A DNA stretch of 20,669 nt from the IMG/VR virus record IMGVR_UViG_3300031539_000383, positions 1 through 20,669 of that record; one strand, given 5' to 3'. Shown here piece by piece: positions 4,203 to 20,669 of the stretch. The notes beneath the pieces are model-generated. The model saw nothing but the letters and a program-made list of their open reading frames with translations. It had not been told where the DNA came from and made no database searches. Position numbers and translations under genes: made by a program. Numbering within the stretch: the stretch's first letter is position 1; each line of letters begins with the position of its first letter. This DNA comes from a virus.

Positions 4203-5086
4203 TGGTTCCCACCCGAGCGAGGCCGGCCCGTTACGGCCGCTCGCGTGCGAAGGGTAGCCGATACGGCGGCCACCGTAGATGGCCTCGACGATACGGCCGG
4301 CCTCGAGCGCGAGACACCCAACACGGCGGCCCCGGTCGATGGCCTCGACGATACGGCCGGCCTCGAGCGCGGCACCCCTCGCGGTGGCCCTGAGTCGGTA
4401 ATTATCCCGGTCCAATCCACATAGAGCTTCGGCCGATGCGCCGGAGTCGAATTGCCGTTCATCTTGAGATATAGGTAAGCCACGTTGTTGATGCCGGCCC
4501 ACGTTCGGAATAGATGGAAAGCGACCGGGGGGTCGGATAGACCGGATTCGTCGAAGGCTAGTTGGAAATGGGCCGTCATTCCGGCGATCGTCGTATCCGG
4601 TGCAACACCTGTTCCGTCGCCGAACGAATGCGTCGTGTCGATCGTCATCGCGGGCATGTTGGCGAGGGTCCCGGCCGGCCCGAGGCCGTCAATCCACACC
4701 GCGAGGTTAGACGATGCGCCGCCGGCCCATTCTGCAAACGGCATCGTCGCGTCGGTTGGATAGTTGGCATTACCAAACCCGCCGCCGTCCGACCATATCC
4801 CGTCGTCGGCAAGGTTCCCGATCTGCATACCGAAGCCCGTTTGCGCCGGGCGTGATCGGTAGTGAGTGAACTCGAGCATAACGCCGTTGATGGTCGCCCC
4901 GGCCGGTATCCCCGTCAGAGGAAAGACGTGGAACGTGGCCCAATAGGTATCGTTGCGCTTGGCCCCGGCGTCGGTCGATCCCATGATCTCGGCGAGTCCG
5001 ATCTCGAAATTGGTGTTTCCGATCTTCTGCTCTTCGATTTCCGTGTCTAGCTGGTCGTCTGATAGCTGGAATGTCGAGAGCGTCAC
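4199..5086 (-). CDS. Probable virion surface/decoration protein with DNRLRE-like jelly-roll domain and repeat tail
   Basis: 295 residues from a GTG that overlaps the TGA of the upstream gene (GTGA). Residues about 15-225 form one beta-rich domain: GNTNFEIG, TYWATFHVFPL, TINGVMLEFTHYR and, at the end, NVAYLYLKMNGN followed by KLYVDWT. This pattern resembles DNRLRE-type jelly-roll modules that bind polymers on cell or virion surfaces. Residues after about 230 are Arg/Ser/Pro/Ala-rich and carry two 20-residue repeats (SRPAVSSRPST). That composition looks like out-of-frame translation of GC-rich DNA, so the real C-terminus may be different (see the repeat entry). CTCGAG-type words are scarcer in the body of this gene than in its neighbours, which hints at separate origin. 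Function is inference. Confidence 0.65.
   Translation of the reverse strand: MTLSTFQLSDDQLDTEIEEQKIGNTNFEIGLAEIMGSTDAGAKRNDTYWATFHVFPLTGIPAGATINGVMLEFTHYRSRPAQTGFGMQIGNLADDGIWSDGGGFGNANYPTDATMPFAEWAGGASSNLAVWIDGLGPAGTLANMPAMTIDTTHSFGDGTGVAPDTTIAGMTAHFQLAFDESGLSDPPVAFHLFRTWAGINNVAYLYLKMNGNSTPAHRPKLYVDWTGIITDSGPPRGVPRSRPAVSSRPSTGAAVLGVSRSRPAVSSRPSTVAAVSATLRTRAAVTGRPRSGGNQ
4252..4371 (-). repeat. Tandem repeat, 2 x 60 bp, coding
   Basis: Two head-to-tail units of exactly 60 bp. A 34-base core is identical in both (4278-4311 and 4338-4371), and the rest of the unit is diverged. The period is 20 codons, so it stays in frame. It is open in two minus-strand frames. One gives SRPAVSSRPST repeats at the end of the upstream protein. 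The other gives ALEAGRIVEAI followed by GRR repeats and runs straight into the downstream 182-residue protein. Codons in the second frame (CTC GAG GCC GGC CGT ATC GTC) look more like the rest of this genome. Base differences between the copies do not clearly favour either frame. Confidence 0.85.
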
Positions 5087-9315: not shown

Positions 9316-9930
9316 ATGGCCCGAAGAATGTCTGAGATAAACAAAAAGACCGGGAAGTATTTCAAAACTCCCGACCTCGAGGAGCTCACCGGGAGGCCTT
9401 GGCAAACGGCTCGAATCAATGTGACTATTACGAGAGCCTACGAGGGCGCCTACGCTGCGTCGTCGAATGGCCCCGAGGAGCCGGCCTTTTTCATCGAGCT
9501 GGCCGGCATCGCAAAGCCGATGGGCGTCAACTACACCAACCGGTGTGTGCTCGAGCAAATGCTTGGCAGCGATGCCGAGTGGGATTCGGCGTGGCTCGCT
9601 GGGCTTCGGCTCACGATCTCGGCTCACATGACCAATAACGGCAAGGTCGGGCTCAAACTCGACCCGGTGGCCGACACCGCGCAAGCCGAGTCGGCGGCCG
9701 CTCGGGCGAAGATCGAGGCGACCATGCGAGAGCGTGGCGAACAGCCCCGGCGGCCGGCGTACCGTGAGGCGCCGCGTGGGCCCCGTAGCGAGACCATCGC
9801 ACCCGAGGCCCTCAACGGCTCACCCCCTGAGAGCGCGACCGAGTGGGGCGACCCTGTGAGGTCTCACGAGCCGATCGAGCCGGCGGATAGGTTCCCCGAC
9901 GACGACCCCGGCCCGATGGAGGTTCGATAG
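9316..9930 (+). CDS. Unknown early protein with ordered N-terminal domain and acidic disordered tail
   Basis: 204 residues from ATG at 9316 (a second ATG at 9328 is possible; the ribosome site GAAAGAGAG is weak for both). It is the first gene of the only rightward cluster, facing the repressor. Residues about 1-120 look folded (WQTARINVTITRAYEG, PAFFIELAGIAKPMGVNYTNR, LAGLRLTISAHMTNNGKVGLKLDP). Residues about 125-204 are charged and Pro-rich and end in an acidic stretch (DRFPDDDPGP). A folded core with an acidic disordered tail is the plan of single-strand DNA-binding proteins, but I see no OB-fold motif, so this is only a possibility. Since no replication gene is recognised elsewhere, this is the main candidate for an early DNA function. 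Confidence 0.8.
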   Translation: MARRMSEINKKTGKYFKTPDLEELTGRPWQTARINVTITRAYEGAYAASSNGPEEPAFFIELAGIAKPMGVNYTNRCVLEQMLGSDAEWDSAWLAGLRLTISAHMTNNGKVGLKLDPVADTAQAESAAARAKIEATMRERGEQPRRPAYREAPRGPRSETIAPEALNGSPPESATEWGDPVRSHEPIEPADRFPDDDPGPMEVR

Positions 9931-10094
9931 TGGCCGGCCTCGCCTCCGAGATTAGCGAGCTCGAGGAGTCACTCGCCGAGGCCTTGCTCGAGGTAGAGCG
10001 GCTCACGAGCGAGGTGCTCTCTTTGAAACAAGCCGTCGAGGAGCTCCAATCGGTGGCCGGTGGCTACCACCGGCGCGAGCAGACTCGCGAATAG
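9930..10094 (+). CDS. 54-residue coiled-coil peptide
   Basis: Starts with GTG at 9930, sharing one base with the previous stop (TAGTG), and ends in TAG at 10092-10094. Residues 4-43 are a continuous heptad helix (SEISELEESLAEALLEVERL, then SEVLSLKQAVEELQ), followed by a short basic end (YHRREQTRE). The codon use (GAG, CTC, GCC) matches neighbouring genes, and the one-base coupling recurs at 19613, so I treat it as real. No known family; it may multimerise or pair with the 82-residue coiled-coil protein downstream. Confidence 0.65.
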   Translation: MAGLASEISELEESLAEALLEVERLTSEVLSLKQAVEELQSVAGGYHRREQTRE

Positions 10095-10158
10095 GGCCGA
10101 TGGGTAGGTGGCCTCGGCACGGTGCCGGGGTCGCCTGCTCGTCATTCTTGAGGTGACT

Positions 10159-10407
10159 ATGCGACACCAGAACAAGACCCGAGAGCGGATTCTCGACCAT
10201 GCCGAGAAGCTCGAGGCCGAGCGCGAGCGGTTAGACGAACAGTGCCGAAGACTCCACGGCGAGAATCGGCGGCTCCGAGCCAAGCTCGCGGTGGCCGAGG
10301 CCGCTCTACGAGCGTCCAATCCCGCCGCGTTTACAGCTTGCGCCGATTGTGGCGAGACCGGCGAACTTACGGGACACATGACGTGTCAATATCCACAAGA
10401 CCGATAG
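10159..10407 (+). CDS. Coiled-coil protein with C-terminal Cys (zinc-ribbon-like) motif
   Basis: 82 residues from ATG at 10159, with GAGGTG ribosome site about 5 bases upstream; the frame is open back to 10108 but that start has no such support. Residues about 8-50 form a highly charged coiled coil (ILDHAEKLEAERERLDEQ, GENRRLRAKLAVAEAAL). The last 25 residues carry CADCGETGELTGHMTC: a CxxC pair and a third Cys plus His, suggesting metal binding in the style of small zinc ribbons or DksA-like tips. Function unknown; binding to nucleic acid or RNA polymerase would fit an early phage protein but is only an idea. Confidence 0.72.
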   Translation: MRHQNKTRERILDHAEKLEAERERLDEQCRRLHGENRRLRAKLAVAEAALRASNPAAFTACADCGETGELTGHMTCQYPQDR

Positions 10408-10417
10408 AGGGCCGACC

Positions 10418-10510
10418 ATGAGTAAACCGGTAATGCGGTTCCCTTGGTTGCCGTTTGGCTTTGCCGTCACGGTCTGGCTCGCGCTTGGCTACCTCTACTC
10501 GATCGTCTGA
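10418..10510 (+). CDS. Tiny single-pass membrane peptide (30 residues)
   Basis: ATG at 10418, ten bases after the previous stop, with a weak GAGG site. It reads MSKPVMRFPWLPFGFAVTVW and ends LALGYLYSIV, with a basic start and one hydrophobic helix from about residue 8 to 30. It is the last gene of the rightward cluster, and its last 44 bases overlap the 3' end of the PEP-CTERM-like gene on the other strand. Such peptides occur as phage membrane or anti-holin factors, but no function can be assigned. Confidence 0.5.
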   Translation: MSKPVMRFPWLPFGFAVTVWLALGYLYSIV

Positions 10511-10856
10511 GTCGGGGCGTGAGGGCCAGCACGAGGCCGCCGAGGGCGAGCGCTATGGGTAGGGCCGGCTCGGGTACGGGTTGGCATTCTGGGTTAGATG
10601 AGCCCTCCACCACCTCGCTCGATACCCCGGCCTCGGTGTAGTGCCGGAGCGCTACGAAAACGCACGGCGTGAGCACCTGGTCGGCGGTGAGGTAGGTCCC
10701 GCACGGCCCGAGCCGCACGTTGACCGGCTCGAAGCTCGTAGGTCTGAGGTGGACCTCCCAACCGAGCTCGAGGCCGCAAACGGTAGCGAGCGGCACCGGC
10801 GCCGGCGCTGGGCACTCGGGAAGGGTCGCGAAGAGCGCCGCGAAGTCAATCGGCAT
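10467..10856 (-). CDS. Small protein with PEP-CTERM-like C-terminal sorting signal
   Basis: 129 residues from the ATG at 10856, which overlaps the end of the upstream gene by 11 bases. Residues 1-90 are Cys- and Pro-containing and not recognised (five Cys at 15, 27, 52, 65 and 91). The C-terminus has the three-part layout of PEP-CTERM signals: PVPEP at 93-97, a hydrophobic helix at 98-113 (ALPIALALGGLVLALT), then Arg-rich PRLRRSSRG and a basic tail. In bacteria this tail is cut by exosortase on export of envelope or biofilm proteins. No N-terminal signal peptide is visible, which is odd for such a cargo. It is the last gene of the lysis cassette. The C-terminal pattern is seen directly; sorting is inferred. 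Confidence 0.75.
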   Translation of the reverse strand: MPIDFAALFATLPECPAPAPVPLATVCGLELGWEVHLRPTSFEPVNVRLGPCGTYLTADQVLTPCVFVALRHYTEAGVSSEVVEGSSNPECQPVPEPALPIALALGGLVLALTPRLRRSSRGSQARARP

Positions 10857-11058
10857 CGTTGACGGCGGCCGGCCAACAGTAGCCAATCAGCCGGCGGTAG
10901 TGCGGGAGGTCGTGGCCGGCGGATTGCGCGGCCTCGAGCCGGGCGGCGTCCCCCTTTGAGGGCTCGGGGCAGCTATGTTGCGTCGGTAGGGTGGCTTCGG
11001 CGGTGCAACACCCGAACGGCGTCAGACTCGTCAGGGATAGGGCTAAGCAGAGCCACAA
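10846..11058 (-). CDS. Candidate outer-membrane spanin (Rz1-like lipoprotein), partly nested in the upstream gene
   Basis: 70 residues from a TTG at 11058 with a GAGG site six bases before it. The frame is open to an ATG at 11142, which would add a 28-residue basic lead. The first 86 bases overlap the i-spanin candidate in another frame, the well-known Rz/Rz1 arrangement. The start is a hydrophobic LCLALSLTSLT followed by PFGCC, a possible but imperfect lipobox. Then comes a short Pro/Cys-containing periplasmic part (LPTQHSCPEP). Outer-membrane spanins join the inner-membrane spanin to fuse the two membranes at lysis. Position after holin and endolysin supports this, while the weak lipobox and short n-region argue for caution. 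Confidence 0.5.
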   Translation of the reverse strand: MWLCLALSLTSLTPFGCCTAEATLPTQHSCPEPSKGDAARLEAAQSAGHDLPHYRRLIGYCWPAAVNDAD

Positions 11059-11215
11059 TCTCGCCCTCGAGCTCGAGCGCTTCTCGGCGTAGCTCTTCGA
11101 CCACCGCGCCGAGGGCGCCAAGGTCTTGCGCGTTGGCTGCATTGGCTCGACCGTAGCCGACGGCGTAGCCTATCGCGAGGCCCACCGGGAAGAGCGCCAC
11201 GAGGGCCAAGGTCAA
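10973..11215 (-). CDS. Candidate inner-membrane spanin (Rz-like)
   Basis: 80 residues from a TTG at 11215 that shares TTGA with the holin stop, the junction type used elsewhere here. A GTG at 11290 in the same frame would add 25 basic residues. One membrane helix covers about residues 2-22 (LALVALFPVGLAIGYAVGY), then a periplasmic helix with heptads (LGALGAVVEELRREALELEG) and a polar end. This is the plan of Rz-type inner-membrane spanins: N-terminal anchor plus coiled coil. It lies after the peptidase and holin-like genes and overlaps an Rz1-like candidate in a second frame. Length (80-105 residues) is on the short side for the class. Confidence 0.6.
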   Translation of the reverse strand: MTLALVALFPVGLAIGYAVGYGRANAANAQDLGALGAVVEELRREALELEGEIVALLSPIPDESDAVRVLHRRSHPTDAT

Positions 11216-11391
11216 GCGATAGGCTCTGCGGTGAGCTTCCTTAGAAACGCGATTAGCGCACCGAGGCCCATTCCGATTGGCCCGATCCACTCGGCCGGAA
11301 GCGGTGAGGTCGCGAGCGCCGTCTGGATCGTTCCGAGTAAGCCGACGCTAATCCCGAGCCACATCGTCTTTGATTTATACCAATCCTTCAT
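11212..11391 (-). CDS. Holin-like small membrane protein
   Basis: 59 residues; ATG at 11391 overlaps the endolysin stop (ATGA). It starts MKDWYKSKTMW with a basic n-region, followed by two hydrophobic segments at about 11-28 (LGISVGLLGTIQTALA) and 35-50 (WIGPIGMGLGALIAFL), split by a short polar loop, and ends in a basic tail. Small two-pass proteins beginning with KSKT are common beside phage endolysins and act as holins that open the inner membrane at a set time. The adjacency to an M15 peptidase makes this likely; pore formation is not shown by sequence. Confidence 0.72.
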   Translation of the reverse strand: MKDWYKSKTMWLGISVGLLGTIQTALATSPLPAEWIGPIGMGLGALIAFLRKLTAEPIA

Positions 11392-11750
11392 GTCAAACCC
11401 CCCCCTTGATGAAGCTCGCTCCAATCGGCCGGAATTGGCCCCGGCGCGAGCCCTTGAATGTGTAAATGAATGCCGCCGCCCTTGTCGACCGTGTGGACGA
11501 CGTACCAAAGCCCGAGCTCGAAAGCGGTTGTGGCCATCGCCTGGAGCTCATGGTGCGTCGGTGCGGCGTAGTCGTCGGCCATGCACGGGAGAATTGCGTG
11601 TTTGCTTCGGGCATCGCCACCCACCGCGATATTGTGTGTCGGCGAGCGGTAGCCCGAGGTGTGCCAACAGCCTGGATGTCTGGTCTCGAGCTCGCGCTTG
11701 GCGGCGTCGTATTCGGCCGGCGAGAGCGGCCGGCGTCGGTCGTTTACCAT
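11388..11750 (-). CDS. M15-family peptidase endolysin
   Basis: 120 residues; ATG at 11750 overlaps the upstream TAA by seven bases. The M15 (VanY/peptidase M15A-like) pattern is clear: TSGYRSPTHNIAVGG at 31-45, SKHAILPCMADDY at 49-61 with zinc ligands His51 and Asp59 or Asp60, and GGGIHLHIQG at 91-100 with His95 or His97 as the third ligand. These enzymes cut peptide bonds in the peptidoglycan stem. No signal peptide or cell-wall-binding domain is present, so it would need a holin, which is encoded next. A run of eight G on the coding strand (11405-11398) lies seven codons before the stop and is a possible error or slippage site. Confidence 0.88.
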   Translation of the reverse strand: MVNDRRRPLSPAEYDAAKRELETRHPGCWHTSGYRSPTHNIAVGGDARSKHAILPCMADDYAAPTHHELQAMATTAFELGLWYVVHTVDKGGGIHLHIQGLAPGPIPADWSELHQGGGLT

Positions 11751-11965
11751 AGGTCTGCGCCGGTGATATGCTTGCCGATCTTCCCGATACCGACCTCGAG
11801 CCGCCTCATTCTAACTTCGGTGTCTGCTCTGAAGTCGGTGAGCTCTTGCTCGATGCGGCCCTGGCGGTTGCTCGTCTTGAGGGCCCACCCGGCAAGAGCG
11901 CTGCTAACCAATCCCACCGCGGTGTGAATCTCTATCATCCATCCACCTGCCTCTTGCTCGGCCAC
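11744..11965 (-). CDS. Small membrane-anchored coiled-coil protein of the lysis cassette
   Basis: 73 residues from a GTG at 11965 (ribosome site GAGG ten bases upstream). An ATG at 11938 with AGGTGG before it would give 64 residues and looks almost as good. One hydrophobic helix (about 12-30, IHTAVGLVSSALAGWAL) is followed by a charged helix with heptads (IEQELTDFRADTEVRMRRLE). This is the reverse order of XhlA-type proteins, which have the coil first. Lying between the tail hub and the peptidase, it may be a second holin-like or lysis-timing protein. No firm family. Confidence 0.65.
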   Translation of the reverse strand: MAEQEAGGWMIEIHTAVGLVSSALAGWALKTSNRQGRIEQELTDFRADTEVRMRRLEVGIGKIGKHITGADLW

Positions 11966-11967
11966 AA

Positions 11968-14964
11968 CTACACCACCTCTTCAAGCACGAGCTCGATCGC
12001 GGGCGCATCGAACGGAAACAGCACCTCGAGCACGCGGCACTTGATAACCCCGGCTTGCCACGGCGGCACGAAGTCGAGAATGTCGCCGGCCTCTAGATCA
12101 TAGCCGAAACGGTAGTCGGTTCTGAGTGTGAAGCGCTTGGCCGTGCCGCGAAGGGTTTCGGCCACGTAATACGACCACACCTCGATCGCGCTCGCGAGGT
12201 CGGGCACAAGCAGGAACGGCATCGGGTCGGTTGGGCGCACACCCACGAGCGCTTGCTGCGCGGTGATGGTGGCGGTGGCGACCCTCGCCGATATGTCGTT
12301 GGTCGTTGCGTTGGCTTGGATGAGCGCCCGATAGCCCTCGAGGTCGGTGTCGGAAAGGTCGTTTCGAAAGTCGTATACCGCCATGAAGTCGGTTGTTCGT
12401 TCGTCGAGCTGGCGGCTACGTGTGATGAGGCCACGGTAGTTAGTGCCGAGACTCCGGGCGGCCGCCGTGAATGCGAAGGTCGTGAGGGCGTTGTAGGCCT
12501 TGACCACCGAGCCCGAGGCGCCCTCGCCCATTATGAAGTTGGTCCGGCTCTCGAGGCCGATTCTGGCCAGCACGTCGCCGAGTGTGGCGCCCGCGTTGCG
12601 TAGGTCGCCGGCGAAGTTAACAGCGGGTAGGTTCGTTCTGGCCGTCGCGAAGGTAGCCACGTCGGCGGATAGACCCGCGTTTTCCTCTATCACCCATTTG
12701 GCCACGTCGATCGGGTTGGTCGGATGCGTCCTCGCTTCGAACGAAAGATTTCGAAAGCCCATCTGACCGCCGTAGATAGCCTGTTCAGCCGTCCAAGCAA
12801 GATTAACTTGGACGATGTCTGTTACGTCGAGCGATCCCACCGCCGAGCGGATTTGCGTACCGGTTCCCGATGAATCAAACACGAACTCATGCCACTGAGC
12901 ATCGTCGTGGAAACACGATCGAGGCCATTGCCAAAAGATATTATTTCCACCCGAGTCAGATAGCGCGATGAGAAAGAAGTCGACCGCCTGAGAGGCGATT
13001 GCATACATGCCGGGAAAGATTTTATACTCGAACTTCATTCGTGACCCGCTCACATCAGCGACAACAGCCTTAAACCCACTCCGTATGAACCCGGTGCCGT
13101 TTCCGTTGATCTGGAAACCGTCGGCCGGACCTGGTGCTATGCTTGTGATAGTACAACTATCCGGTGTCCATCCTGTTGCGTCGTCAAACTCGGTCCTCGG
13201 TGTTTCCGTTCCGAGCGTGGCGACCCCGATTAGGTCGGCGTATAGGTCGACGTTAAAACCGATTTCCTGGGCGCCCGTTGTTATTGCGGCGAATGTCTGC
13301 ACGATCACCGCCGCCGGTGTCTCCATCTCGAGCACGATCGACGATATGTCAACCTCGAACCAAGTATTGGGATTCGACCCGCCGGTGCCGATCCCTAGCC
13401 CGATTTCAATATGTGGCTGAAACTCAGAGAATCCGGCTACCCCGTTCGAAGCATCGCCGACCACCGTACCGACGGGACAATTCGTCCAAGCGGTTGCGGC
13501 GCCAACCACGGTATCAGAAACGAATATCGGGCTAAGCTGGAAGCTATGGCTGGAGTCTGCATTAAGGAAATCGTCGGTAAACATGAACTTTCCGACGGTC
13601 GTGTTTATGCTGTTCGTGTGTATCACGTAGTTAAAGACGGCCCGGTATCTCGTCACCGTTGAGCCAATCGACGCTAGATCCCCGTCGAGCCAGAATATGA
13701 AGCCCCGTTCATCGACCGTAGTATTTCGAATCGCTTTGTATAAACTTCCGCTGAGAAACATGTCGGTGTCGATGGATATGACCGGCTCGATCCACGTCGT
13801 ATTGCGCGTCGGGGTGTCGCTGAGCACCGTCGGCGGCCCACCTGCGTACGCCGGTTGCTGAGTGACCTTGGCCTCGTTGTTGAGAAGCCGTATCACGTTG
13901 GCCCAAAGCTGCGCCGTAAACGAAACCACGCCGAGCTCGTAGCCTGGATCGAGCACGGGGTCGGATTGCTGAAAGCCGTACCACCCGTTCGGAATAAACA
14001 AGAGCTCCCCGCTCGATGGGCTCTTCGCGTAGAGCCGGTCTAATCCGATAGTCGGCACTCCCGAGGTCACAAACCGAGCCGATTCTATCTCCTCGATGAG
14101 CACCTGGCCGGATTTGTGCGCCACCGAGGTTGTTAGGGTGGTTCCCGATGATTGGCCGCGCCCGATTATGTCGAGCACGTTCTGGCTCACCTTGGTTGCG
14201 GTTAGCTTCTCGGTGCCGATCCATAAATTAAGCACCGCCGGATCGGCCGCGAAGCCGGACGCATCCGATACGAGCACGTATCCGAGCTGCGCCGGGGCGA
14301 GGTCTGTAATCAAGGTCGTCACCCAACCGACCTGGCGCTGTACGAGCGGCACGCGCTTTGCGCTCCCGATCGGTAGCGGGTAGAGCTTTCCGAGGTCCTT
14401 CTCGCTCACCTCGGTAGCCGCGAGGGCTTGGCCGAAGTTAATCGGCGGCTCCACCGAGTCGGCCACGAGCTGGAACGTCGTAGCCTCGGCGGCGTATTCT
14501 GGGATCTGCGTTACCTCGCCCCGAAACCTCACGATGTGGTCGGCCGTGGTGGCGCTCTGGTCGATCCAAGACCCGTCGCTCGAGTCTTGCCAATCGAGCA
14601 AGAGTGTGGCGACCTCGATCTTCGCGCCTACTAGATTGGCCTCGGTGAGTAGCCACCATATATTTAGCGTTCCCCACTCGTCGGCGGCGAAGTTGACGCG
14701 AAGGCCGTCACGGGTCGAGAGCTCGGCGTCGGTTGGAATATGCGAGAAGCCGCGAGCGAGCGGCCCCACGCTTTCGACGAAGCCTCGCCAATGGTTGACG
14801 GTGGCCCCGTCCCACCGATAGAGGAGCGGGAGCGTGGCGAAGTAAAGCACCTCGTCGACCGTCTTTGCCGCGTGGTCGGTATAGGTCTCGATTCGCACGA
14901 GCGTTACGCTTTGAGGCGTGGCCGAATAGGCCTTTTTCTTCTGGGCATCGGTGAGGGAAAGCAC
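11968..14964 (-). CDS. Tail hub/tip protein with inserted jelly-roll modules (host recognition)
   Basis: 998 residues, GTG start. The N-terminal 340 residues are beta-rich and read like baseplate hub domains (VTLVRIETYTDHAAKTVDEV, HIVRFRGEVTQIPEYAAEAT, then YPLPIGSAKRVPLVQRQVG). Residues about 370-745 differ: two sandwich-like blocks rich in Asn, Ser, Thr and aromatic residues (TWFEVDISSIVLEMETPA; MKFEYKIFPGMYA; WHEFVFDSSG), typical of carbohydrate-binding or receptor-binding modules. From about 746 (THPTNPIDVAKWVIEENAG) the hub-like part resumes with helical and strand segments to the end (FRFG-like RTDYRFGYDLEAGDILDFVPP). It follows the distal tail gene, where tip proteins lie in siphophages. 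The function is by position and architecture; I recognise no exact family. Confidence 0.75.
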   Translation of the reverse strand: MLSLTDAQKKKAYSATPQSVTLVRIETYTDHAAKTVDEVLYFATLPLLYRWDGATVNHWRGFVESVGPLARGFSHIPTDAELSTRDGLRVNFAADEWGTLNIWWLLTEANLVGAKIEVATLLLDWQDSSDGSWIDQSATTADHIVRFRGEVTQIPEYAAEATTFQLVADSVEPPINFGQALAATEVSEKDLGKLYPLPIGSAKRVPLVQRQVGWVTTLITDLAPAQLGYVLVSDASGFAADPAVLNLWIGTEKLTATKVSQNVLDIIGRGQSSGTTLTTSVAHKSGQVLIEEIESARFVTSGVPTIGLDRLYAKSPSSGELLFIPNGWYGFQQSDPVLDPGYELGVVSFTAQLWANVIRLLNNEAKVTQQPAYAGGPPTVLSDTPTRNTTWIEPVISIDTDMFLSGSLYKAIRNTTVDERGFIFWLDGDLASIGSTVTRYRAVFNYVIHTNSINTTVGKFMFTDDFLNADSSHSFQLSPIFVSDTVVGAATAWTNCPVGTVVGDASNGVAGFSEFQPHIEIGLGIGTGGSNPNTWFEVDISSIVLEMETPAAVIVQTFAAITTGAQEIGFNVDLYADLIGVATLGTETPRTEFDDATGWTPDSCTITSIAPGPADGFQINGNGTGFIRSGFKAVVADVSGSRMKFEYKIFPGMYAIASQAVDFFLIALSDSGGNNIFWQWPRSCFHDDAQWHEFVFDSSGTGTQIRSAVGSLDVTDIVQVNLAWTAEQAIYGGQMGFRNLSFEARTHPTNPIDVAKWVIEENAGLSADVATFATARTNLPAVNFAGDLRNAGATLGDVLARIGLESRTNFIMGEGASGSVVKAYNALTTFAFTAAARSLGTNYRGLITRSRQLDERTTDFMAVYDFRNDLSDTDLEGYRALIQANATTNDISARVATATITAQQALVGVRPTDPMPFLLVPDLASAIEVWSYYVAETLRGTAKRFTLRTDYRFGYDLEAGDILDFVPPWQAGVIKCRVLEVLFPFDAPAIELVLEEVV

Positions 14965-20436: not shown

Positions 20437-20669
20437 CTAGTAGACGGTCTTGCGCCAAGAGTTGTTGACGTTGATTGCCGAGGTCGGTATCAGCCGGCCG
20501 TCGATGCGCTCGTCGACCACCCACGTCGTAAGCCCGGTGGTGACGGCCCGATCGGCATCCACCCGGATTCCGGCACGGTTGCCGAGCGCGTACCACATCG
20601 GATCTCCGAAGTAGACCACATCGTCGGCCACCGGCACTTCATAGATGGGCTTGTTGAGAATCATACCCA
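20437..20669 (-). CDS. Major capsid protein, C-terminal part (HK97 fold), runs off the window edge
   Basis: The last 77 codons to a TAG at 20437. The reading frame is open to the edge, so the ATG at 20664 is internal (it reads ...GMILNKPIYEV). The sequence has the C-terminal signature of HK97-type capsid proteins: a Leu/Pro turn (LNKPIYEVPVADDV), the strand VVYFGDPMWYALGNRAGIRV, then the closing A-domain strands and a short end (INVNNSWRKTVY). It matches the N-terminal part at 1-590, and the two are almost certainly the same gene. Together they make 273 codons against about 400 in the family, so a middle part (E-loop, P-domain) is outside the window. Confidence 0.85.
   Translation of the reverse strand, partial: GMILNKPIYEVPVADDVVYFGDPMWYALGNRAGIRVDADRAVTTGLTTWVVDERIDGRLIPTSAINVNNSWRKTVY

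Follow-up and report, generated by a model that had tools for sequence, protein, structure and literature searches.

We describe a gene at the end of a phage lysis block (10467..10856, minus strand, ATG start) encoding a 129-aa protein, which combines an acidic, cysteine-containing N-terminal part with a C-terminal membrane anchor that resembles a PEP-CTERM sorting tail. At a probability of about one half, we read it as a genuine accessory gene, expressed late as part of the lysis operon, that encodes a small inner-membrane protein with a single N-out/C-in pass, located beside the spanins. Among known kinds of protein, it comes closest to signal-less membrane proteins anchored by their C-terminus. 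The tail resembles PEP-CTERM in its type of anchor and is probably an ordinary membrane anchor. The ORF, the tail, the missing signal peptide, the operon position and the charge distribution are seen directly; we infer the membrane topology of the protein, its timing and its role at lysis.

Position of the gene within the lysis cassette

The window, that is, the whole stretch of DNA analyzed, is an IMG/VR record of 20,669 bases. It appears to cover nearly the entire genome of a small tailed phage (about 21 kb): the major capsid gene is split between the two window ends (its N-terminal half falls at 1-594 and its C-terminal one at 20437-20664, within the end segment 20437-20669), and about 0.55 kb is apparently missing between them when the capsid gene of a relative, L009, is taken as a guide. 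The capsid, tail and lysis genes succeed one another on the minus strand; a short convergent block on the plus strand (9316-10510) comes next, followed by the regulator, methyltransferase, terminase and portal genes. Among annotated phages, the methanogen viruses psiM100/psiM2 have the closest terminase (46%). A search of genome contigs with terminase and portal profiles returned no prophage relative and no host assignment.

The lysis block lies on the minus strand and comprises an endolysin with profile matches to Peptidase_M15_3 (11388..11750), a holin-like small membrane protein (11212..11391, with an ATG at 11391 and a strong Shine-Dalgarno), an i-spanin-like (Rz) protein with an N-terminal helix and a charged periplasmic part (10973..11290), and an o-spanin-like (Rz1) lipoprotein frame (10846..11142). 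The i-spanin-like product weakly matches DUF7423 and an Rz-like spanin PHROG. The o-spanin-like frame has a TTG start at 11058, which is preceded by GAGGGCGAG and yields MWLCLALSLTSLTPFGC, and it runs past the end of the Rz frame, so that the pair fits the "overlapped" spanin architecture as defined in PMC6139136. The gene under study directly follows these two spanin-like genes, as the first-pass annotation had it. At its 5' end it shares 11 nt with the o-spanin-like gene, and its Shine-Dalgarno is not clear; from the overlap, translational coupling to the o-spanin-like gene is possible, as is an alternative start (TTG at 10886). On the opposite strand, a small convergent ORF of uncertain gene status (30 aa with one hydrophobic stretch, MSKPVMRFPWLPFGFAVTVWLALGYLYSIV; 10418..10510, plus strand) has GAGGG in front of it and overlaps the target gene over its final 14 codons.

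The target frame is probably a real coding gene. Its GC content by codon position (0.71/0.56/0.78) resembles that of the phage's clear genes, and it has the top codon score among the six frames over most of the stretch. This support is moderate and not decisive because 2 of 44 spurious ORFs of 90 or more aa outscore it in codon usage. Those two ORFs, together with the unclear ribosome-binding site and the empty homologue searches (none found among viral contigs, annotated phages or PDB sequences), are what one would expect if this were not a gene but an open frame that carries its motif by chance, in GC-rich sequence separating the o-spanin gene from the convergent early genes. We consider this quite unlikely in view of the third-position GC, the lead over the other frames, an overlap with the upstream stop that is typical of operons, and a three-part C-terminus that is itself improbable. 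It is also conceivable that the target frame is one half of a unimolecular spanin, joined to the o-spanin frame by a +1 shift, either programmed or due to a sequence error, to give a lipoprotein with a C-terminal helix. The two frames do overlap, from 10886 to 10846, and unimolecular spanins combine a lipobox at the N-terminus with a helix at the C-terminus (PMC6139136). Like those of the T1 gp11 type (PMC6139136), the target is a lysis-cassette protein with a C-terminal membrane helix (residues 98-113, by hydropathy), but its own frame has no lipobox, and a lipobox-like stretch is found only in the upstream frame. Moreover, a two-component spanin pair already stands beside it, no slippery site was seen in the overlap, and none of 58 unimolecular spanins has a periplasmic cysteine (PMC6139136), against five cysteines here. 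The cysteine content and the presence of an i-spanin gene lead us to judge such a fusion very unlikely.

Searching with portal and terminase yielded about 20 relatives, of which three cover the lysis region (L009, L221 and L223). Searches with endolysin and tail profiles for further relatives of the lysis cassette returned only these three again, plus L231, which stops short of the lysis genes. A homologue at the same locus, which the first-pass annotation had suggested seeking in related phages, is found in none of the three. The lysis cassette of L009 (terminase 64-65%) differs in make-up, with a lipoprotein among its products and nothing resembling the target at the site; that of L221 (terminase 75%, endolysin 55%) contains a holin-lipoprotein frame and no counterpart of the target; and L223 (terminase 66%, endolysin 50%) likewise lacks a target-like gene at its lysis site. 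Because the same site is without such a gene in all three, the target gene is accessory and is tied to lysis by association only.

The C-terminal tail and the missing signal peptide

The protein ends in NPECQPVPEPALPIALALGGLVLALTPRLRRSSRGSQARARP. An N-terminal part with five cysteines and no signal peptide (residues 1-92; 10581..10856) is followed by PVPEP (residues 93-97; 10566..10580), a hydrophobic helix of 16 residues by hydropathy (ALPIALALGGLVLALT, residues 98-113; 10518..10565) and a basic C-terminus with six Arg and no acidic residue (PRLRRSSRGSQARARP, residues 114-129; 10470..10517), all on the minus strand. The three-part tail described in the first-pass annotation is thus present in the translated ORF. 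The stretch PRLRRSSRG is there as well, although it is not the terminus that it was taken for, since seven more residues (SQARARP) follow. A single-sequence AlphaFold2 model computed without an alignment is uninformative (mean pLDDT 38.9); it places a helix at residues 98-115 with low confidence. A fibronectin-III-like reading of the N-terminal part, made by eye, found no support in Pfam or PDB searches.

The expectation that PEP-CTERM models would respond to the tail was borne out in that three NCBIfam models match the protein, NF038129 (E=0.0056, over 50 residues), PEP-cistern (0.15) and TIGR02595 (0.22), but all of them score below cut-off; for TIGR02595, the score is 12.4-12.5 bits against a curated cut-off of 16 bits. 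A six-frame search of the window record gives TIGR02595 at 14 bits (E=0.0033). Across 50 related viral records, TIGR02595 matches at E<=1 in a single one, L077, where it hits a true PEP-CTERM gene. For 9,152 ORFs from related loci, shuffling of the C-terminal 45 residues gives an expectation of 0.15 such tails, against two present in the actual sequences (in L077 and L223); shuffling the target's own last 45 residues rebuilt the motif in 2.6e-4 (0.026%) of the shuffles. Chance alone is therefore a poor account of the tail, which is moderately but not overwhelmingly improbable; we grade it no higher because any feature of the window was open to selection in the first-pass annotation.

The absence of an N-terminal signal peptide, which the first-pass annotation had remarked on, holds: a hydropathy heuristic finds no candidate segment from any start. 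Once start sites are corrected, a signal peptide is present in 97% of PEP-CTERM proteins (Haft et al. 2006, PMC1569441). We also scanned IMG/VR for frames in which VPEP is followed by 17 codons lacking A in second position and then by RxRR. Among 83 frames in the fetched loci, 57 resemble true PEP-CTERM tails, and 49 of these pass a simple signal-peptide score. The other eight comprise four that are cut by the end of the locus or contig, three with an evident signal peptide by eye, and L092, whose tail frame has 57 codons and no start. The complete, assessable examples from viral contigs thus carry a signal peptide, and its absence is the main reason for which we do not file the target protein as PEP-CTERM cargo. 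Like the proteins of the PEP-CTERM (TIGR02595)/exosortase system (PMC1569441), it has a PEP motif, a hydrophobic helix of about 14-16 residues and a basic C-terminal end. Unlike them, it scores below the cut-off, has no N-terminal signal peptide, and stands as a single copy in the lysis cassette of a phage.

Proposed topology and role at lysis

Residues 1-97, through PVPEP, hold 3 K/R against 11 D/E (net -8), whereas six Arg and no acidic residue come after the helix; by the positive-inside rule, this charge distribution argues for an N-out/C-in topology. Cysteine is enriched in the protein (5/129 against 33/6532 in the other ORFs of the window, p=0.0008), which suits a periplasmic location of the N-terminal part. 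Signal-less bacterial proteins with one C-terminal helix exist (PMC3087755), and one of them has been read as N-out on account of four positive residues after its helix (PMC3087755). The target shares with these proteins the lack of a signal sequence, the single C-terminal helix and the basic residues after it that indicate an N-out orientation; the experimentally supported ones are cellular, and the likeness is one of layout features. The N-tail of ProW, 100 residues long, is reported to be translocated with no signal peptide (Whitley 1994, as cited in PMC6110835).

Under the reading that we favor, the gene, as the last of the lysis operon, would be transcribed late and its product made alongside the holin, the endolysin and the spanins. 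The C-terminal helix would be the sole membrane-targeting element. The Arg-rich end would remain in the cytoplasm while the short, acidic, cysteine-containing N-terminal part would be pushed into the periplasm without a signal peptide, so that, at lysis, the protein would most likely be located in the envelope next to the spanin complex. That it acts at lysis is suggested by its operon position. Handling by an exosortase is possible as well, because PVPEP would face the periplasm in the predicted N-out topology.

Two other accounts of the membrane protein must be weighed against this one. If it were genuine PEP-CTERM cargo, its N-tail would be translocated and the host exosortase would cleave or relocate it at PVPEP, the tail having possibly been captured from a host gene with loss of the signal peptide. 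The spacing of PVPEP, helix and Arg cluster fits, three PEP-CTERM models respond, NF038129 doing so across 50 residues, such matches are rare among related viral records (1/50), and bona fide PEP-CTERM genes are present in other phages. Set against this are a TIGR02595 score of 12.4 bits where 16 are needed and a missing signal peptide that is found in 97% of known cargo and in the complete, assessable viral examples, and we regard the cargo reading as unlikely. The lack of a signal peptide would also suit a tail-anchored protein whose N-terminal part stays in the cytoplasm, for instance as a regulator of holin timing, with the PEP arising by chance in a Pro-rich linker. The N-terminal part is indeed Pro-rich, and regulators of lysis are often located in the lysis cassette. 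This arrangement is doubtful, however, as it would require translocation of the six Arg that follow the helix, contrary to the positive-inside rule, and the N-terminal part is rich in cysteine.

PEP-like tails elsewhere in phages

A second signal-less protein with a PEP-like tail is encoded by the relative L223 (L223:5041-5316, plus strand), outside the lysis cassette and directly after a gene for an HTH regulator. It has 91 aa and an LPEP-helix-RSTRR end (CEWVTLPEPGFGLLLAVGVLMIIHLSRSTRR), its start at 5041 is preceded by a good Shine-Dalgarno (GGGGAGGTTTGAG), and its N-tail is acidic, with 4 K/R against 12 D/E (net -8). This charge pattern matches that of the target and likewise fits a single-pass N-out/C-in protein that inserts with no signal peptide. 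No TIGR02595 or other HMM score was obtained for it. It resembles the target protein in the tail only (BLASTP E=0.002; segment-shuffle p=0.01, against p=0.74 for the N-terminal parts). That one phage group has two such tails is suggestive, though convergence could account for it. A more speculative view, which we hold to be improbable, would see the window and L223 as two independent examples of a wider arrangement, in which some phages make signal-less proteins with a self-translocated acidic N-tail and a PEP-type C-terminus that engages the host exosortase, so that a phage protein enters, or saturates, envelope sorting when lysis takes place.

PEP-CTERM proteins above the TIGR02595 cut-off are encoded on viral contigs near a phage DNA polymerase gene (L113:194-1060, plus strand) and near a gene for a phage DNA-binding protein (L165:714-1535, plus strand). 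In L077 (IMGVR_UViG_3300006358_000038; 11736-12347, plus strand), the terminase and portal genes of the phage contig flank the gene for a 203-aa PEP-CTERM protein, which has a signal peptide and scores 16.8-21.1 bits with TIGR02595. L128 (3389-4141, minus strand) has an insertion place of the same kind, where the gene for a 250-aa PEPxxWA-CTERM protein with a signal peptide (44 bits, cut-off 35) lies between terminase-like and portal genes. Genuine PEP-CTERM genes thus do occur within the structural (head) modules of phages, a point that is firmer than the one concerning the target gene. In the parts of the literature that our search reached, nothing was found on phage-encoded PEP-CTERM proteins or exosortases, including PEP-CTERM genes in phage structural modules.

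As it stands, the target is one orphan accessory gene of a lysis module with a suggestive anchor. If its tail were a working sorting signal, the phage would be using the exosortase of its host, and the host would be marked as exosortase-bearing. The wider point is the presence of PEP-CTERM genes in phage structural modules, which deserves separate attention.
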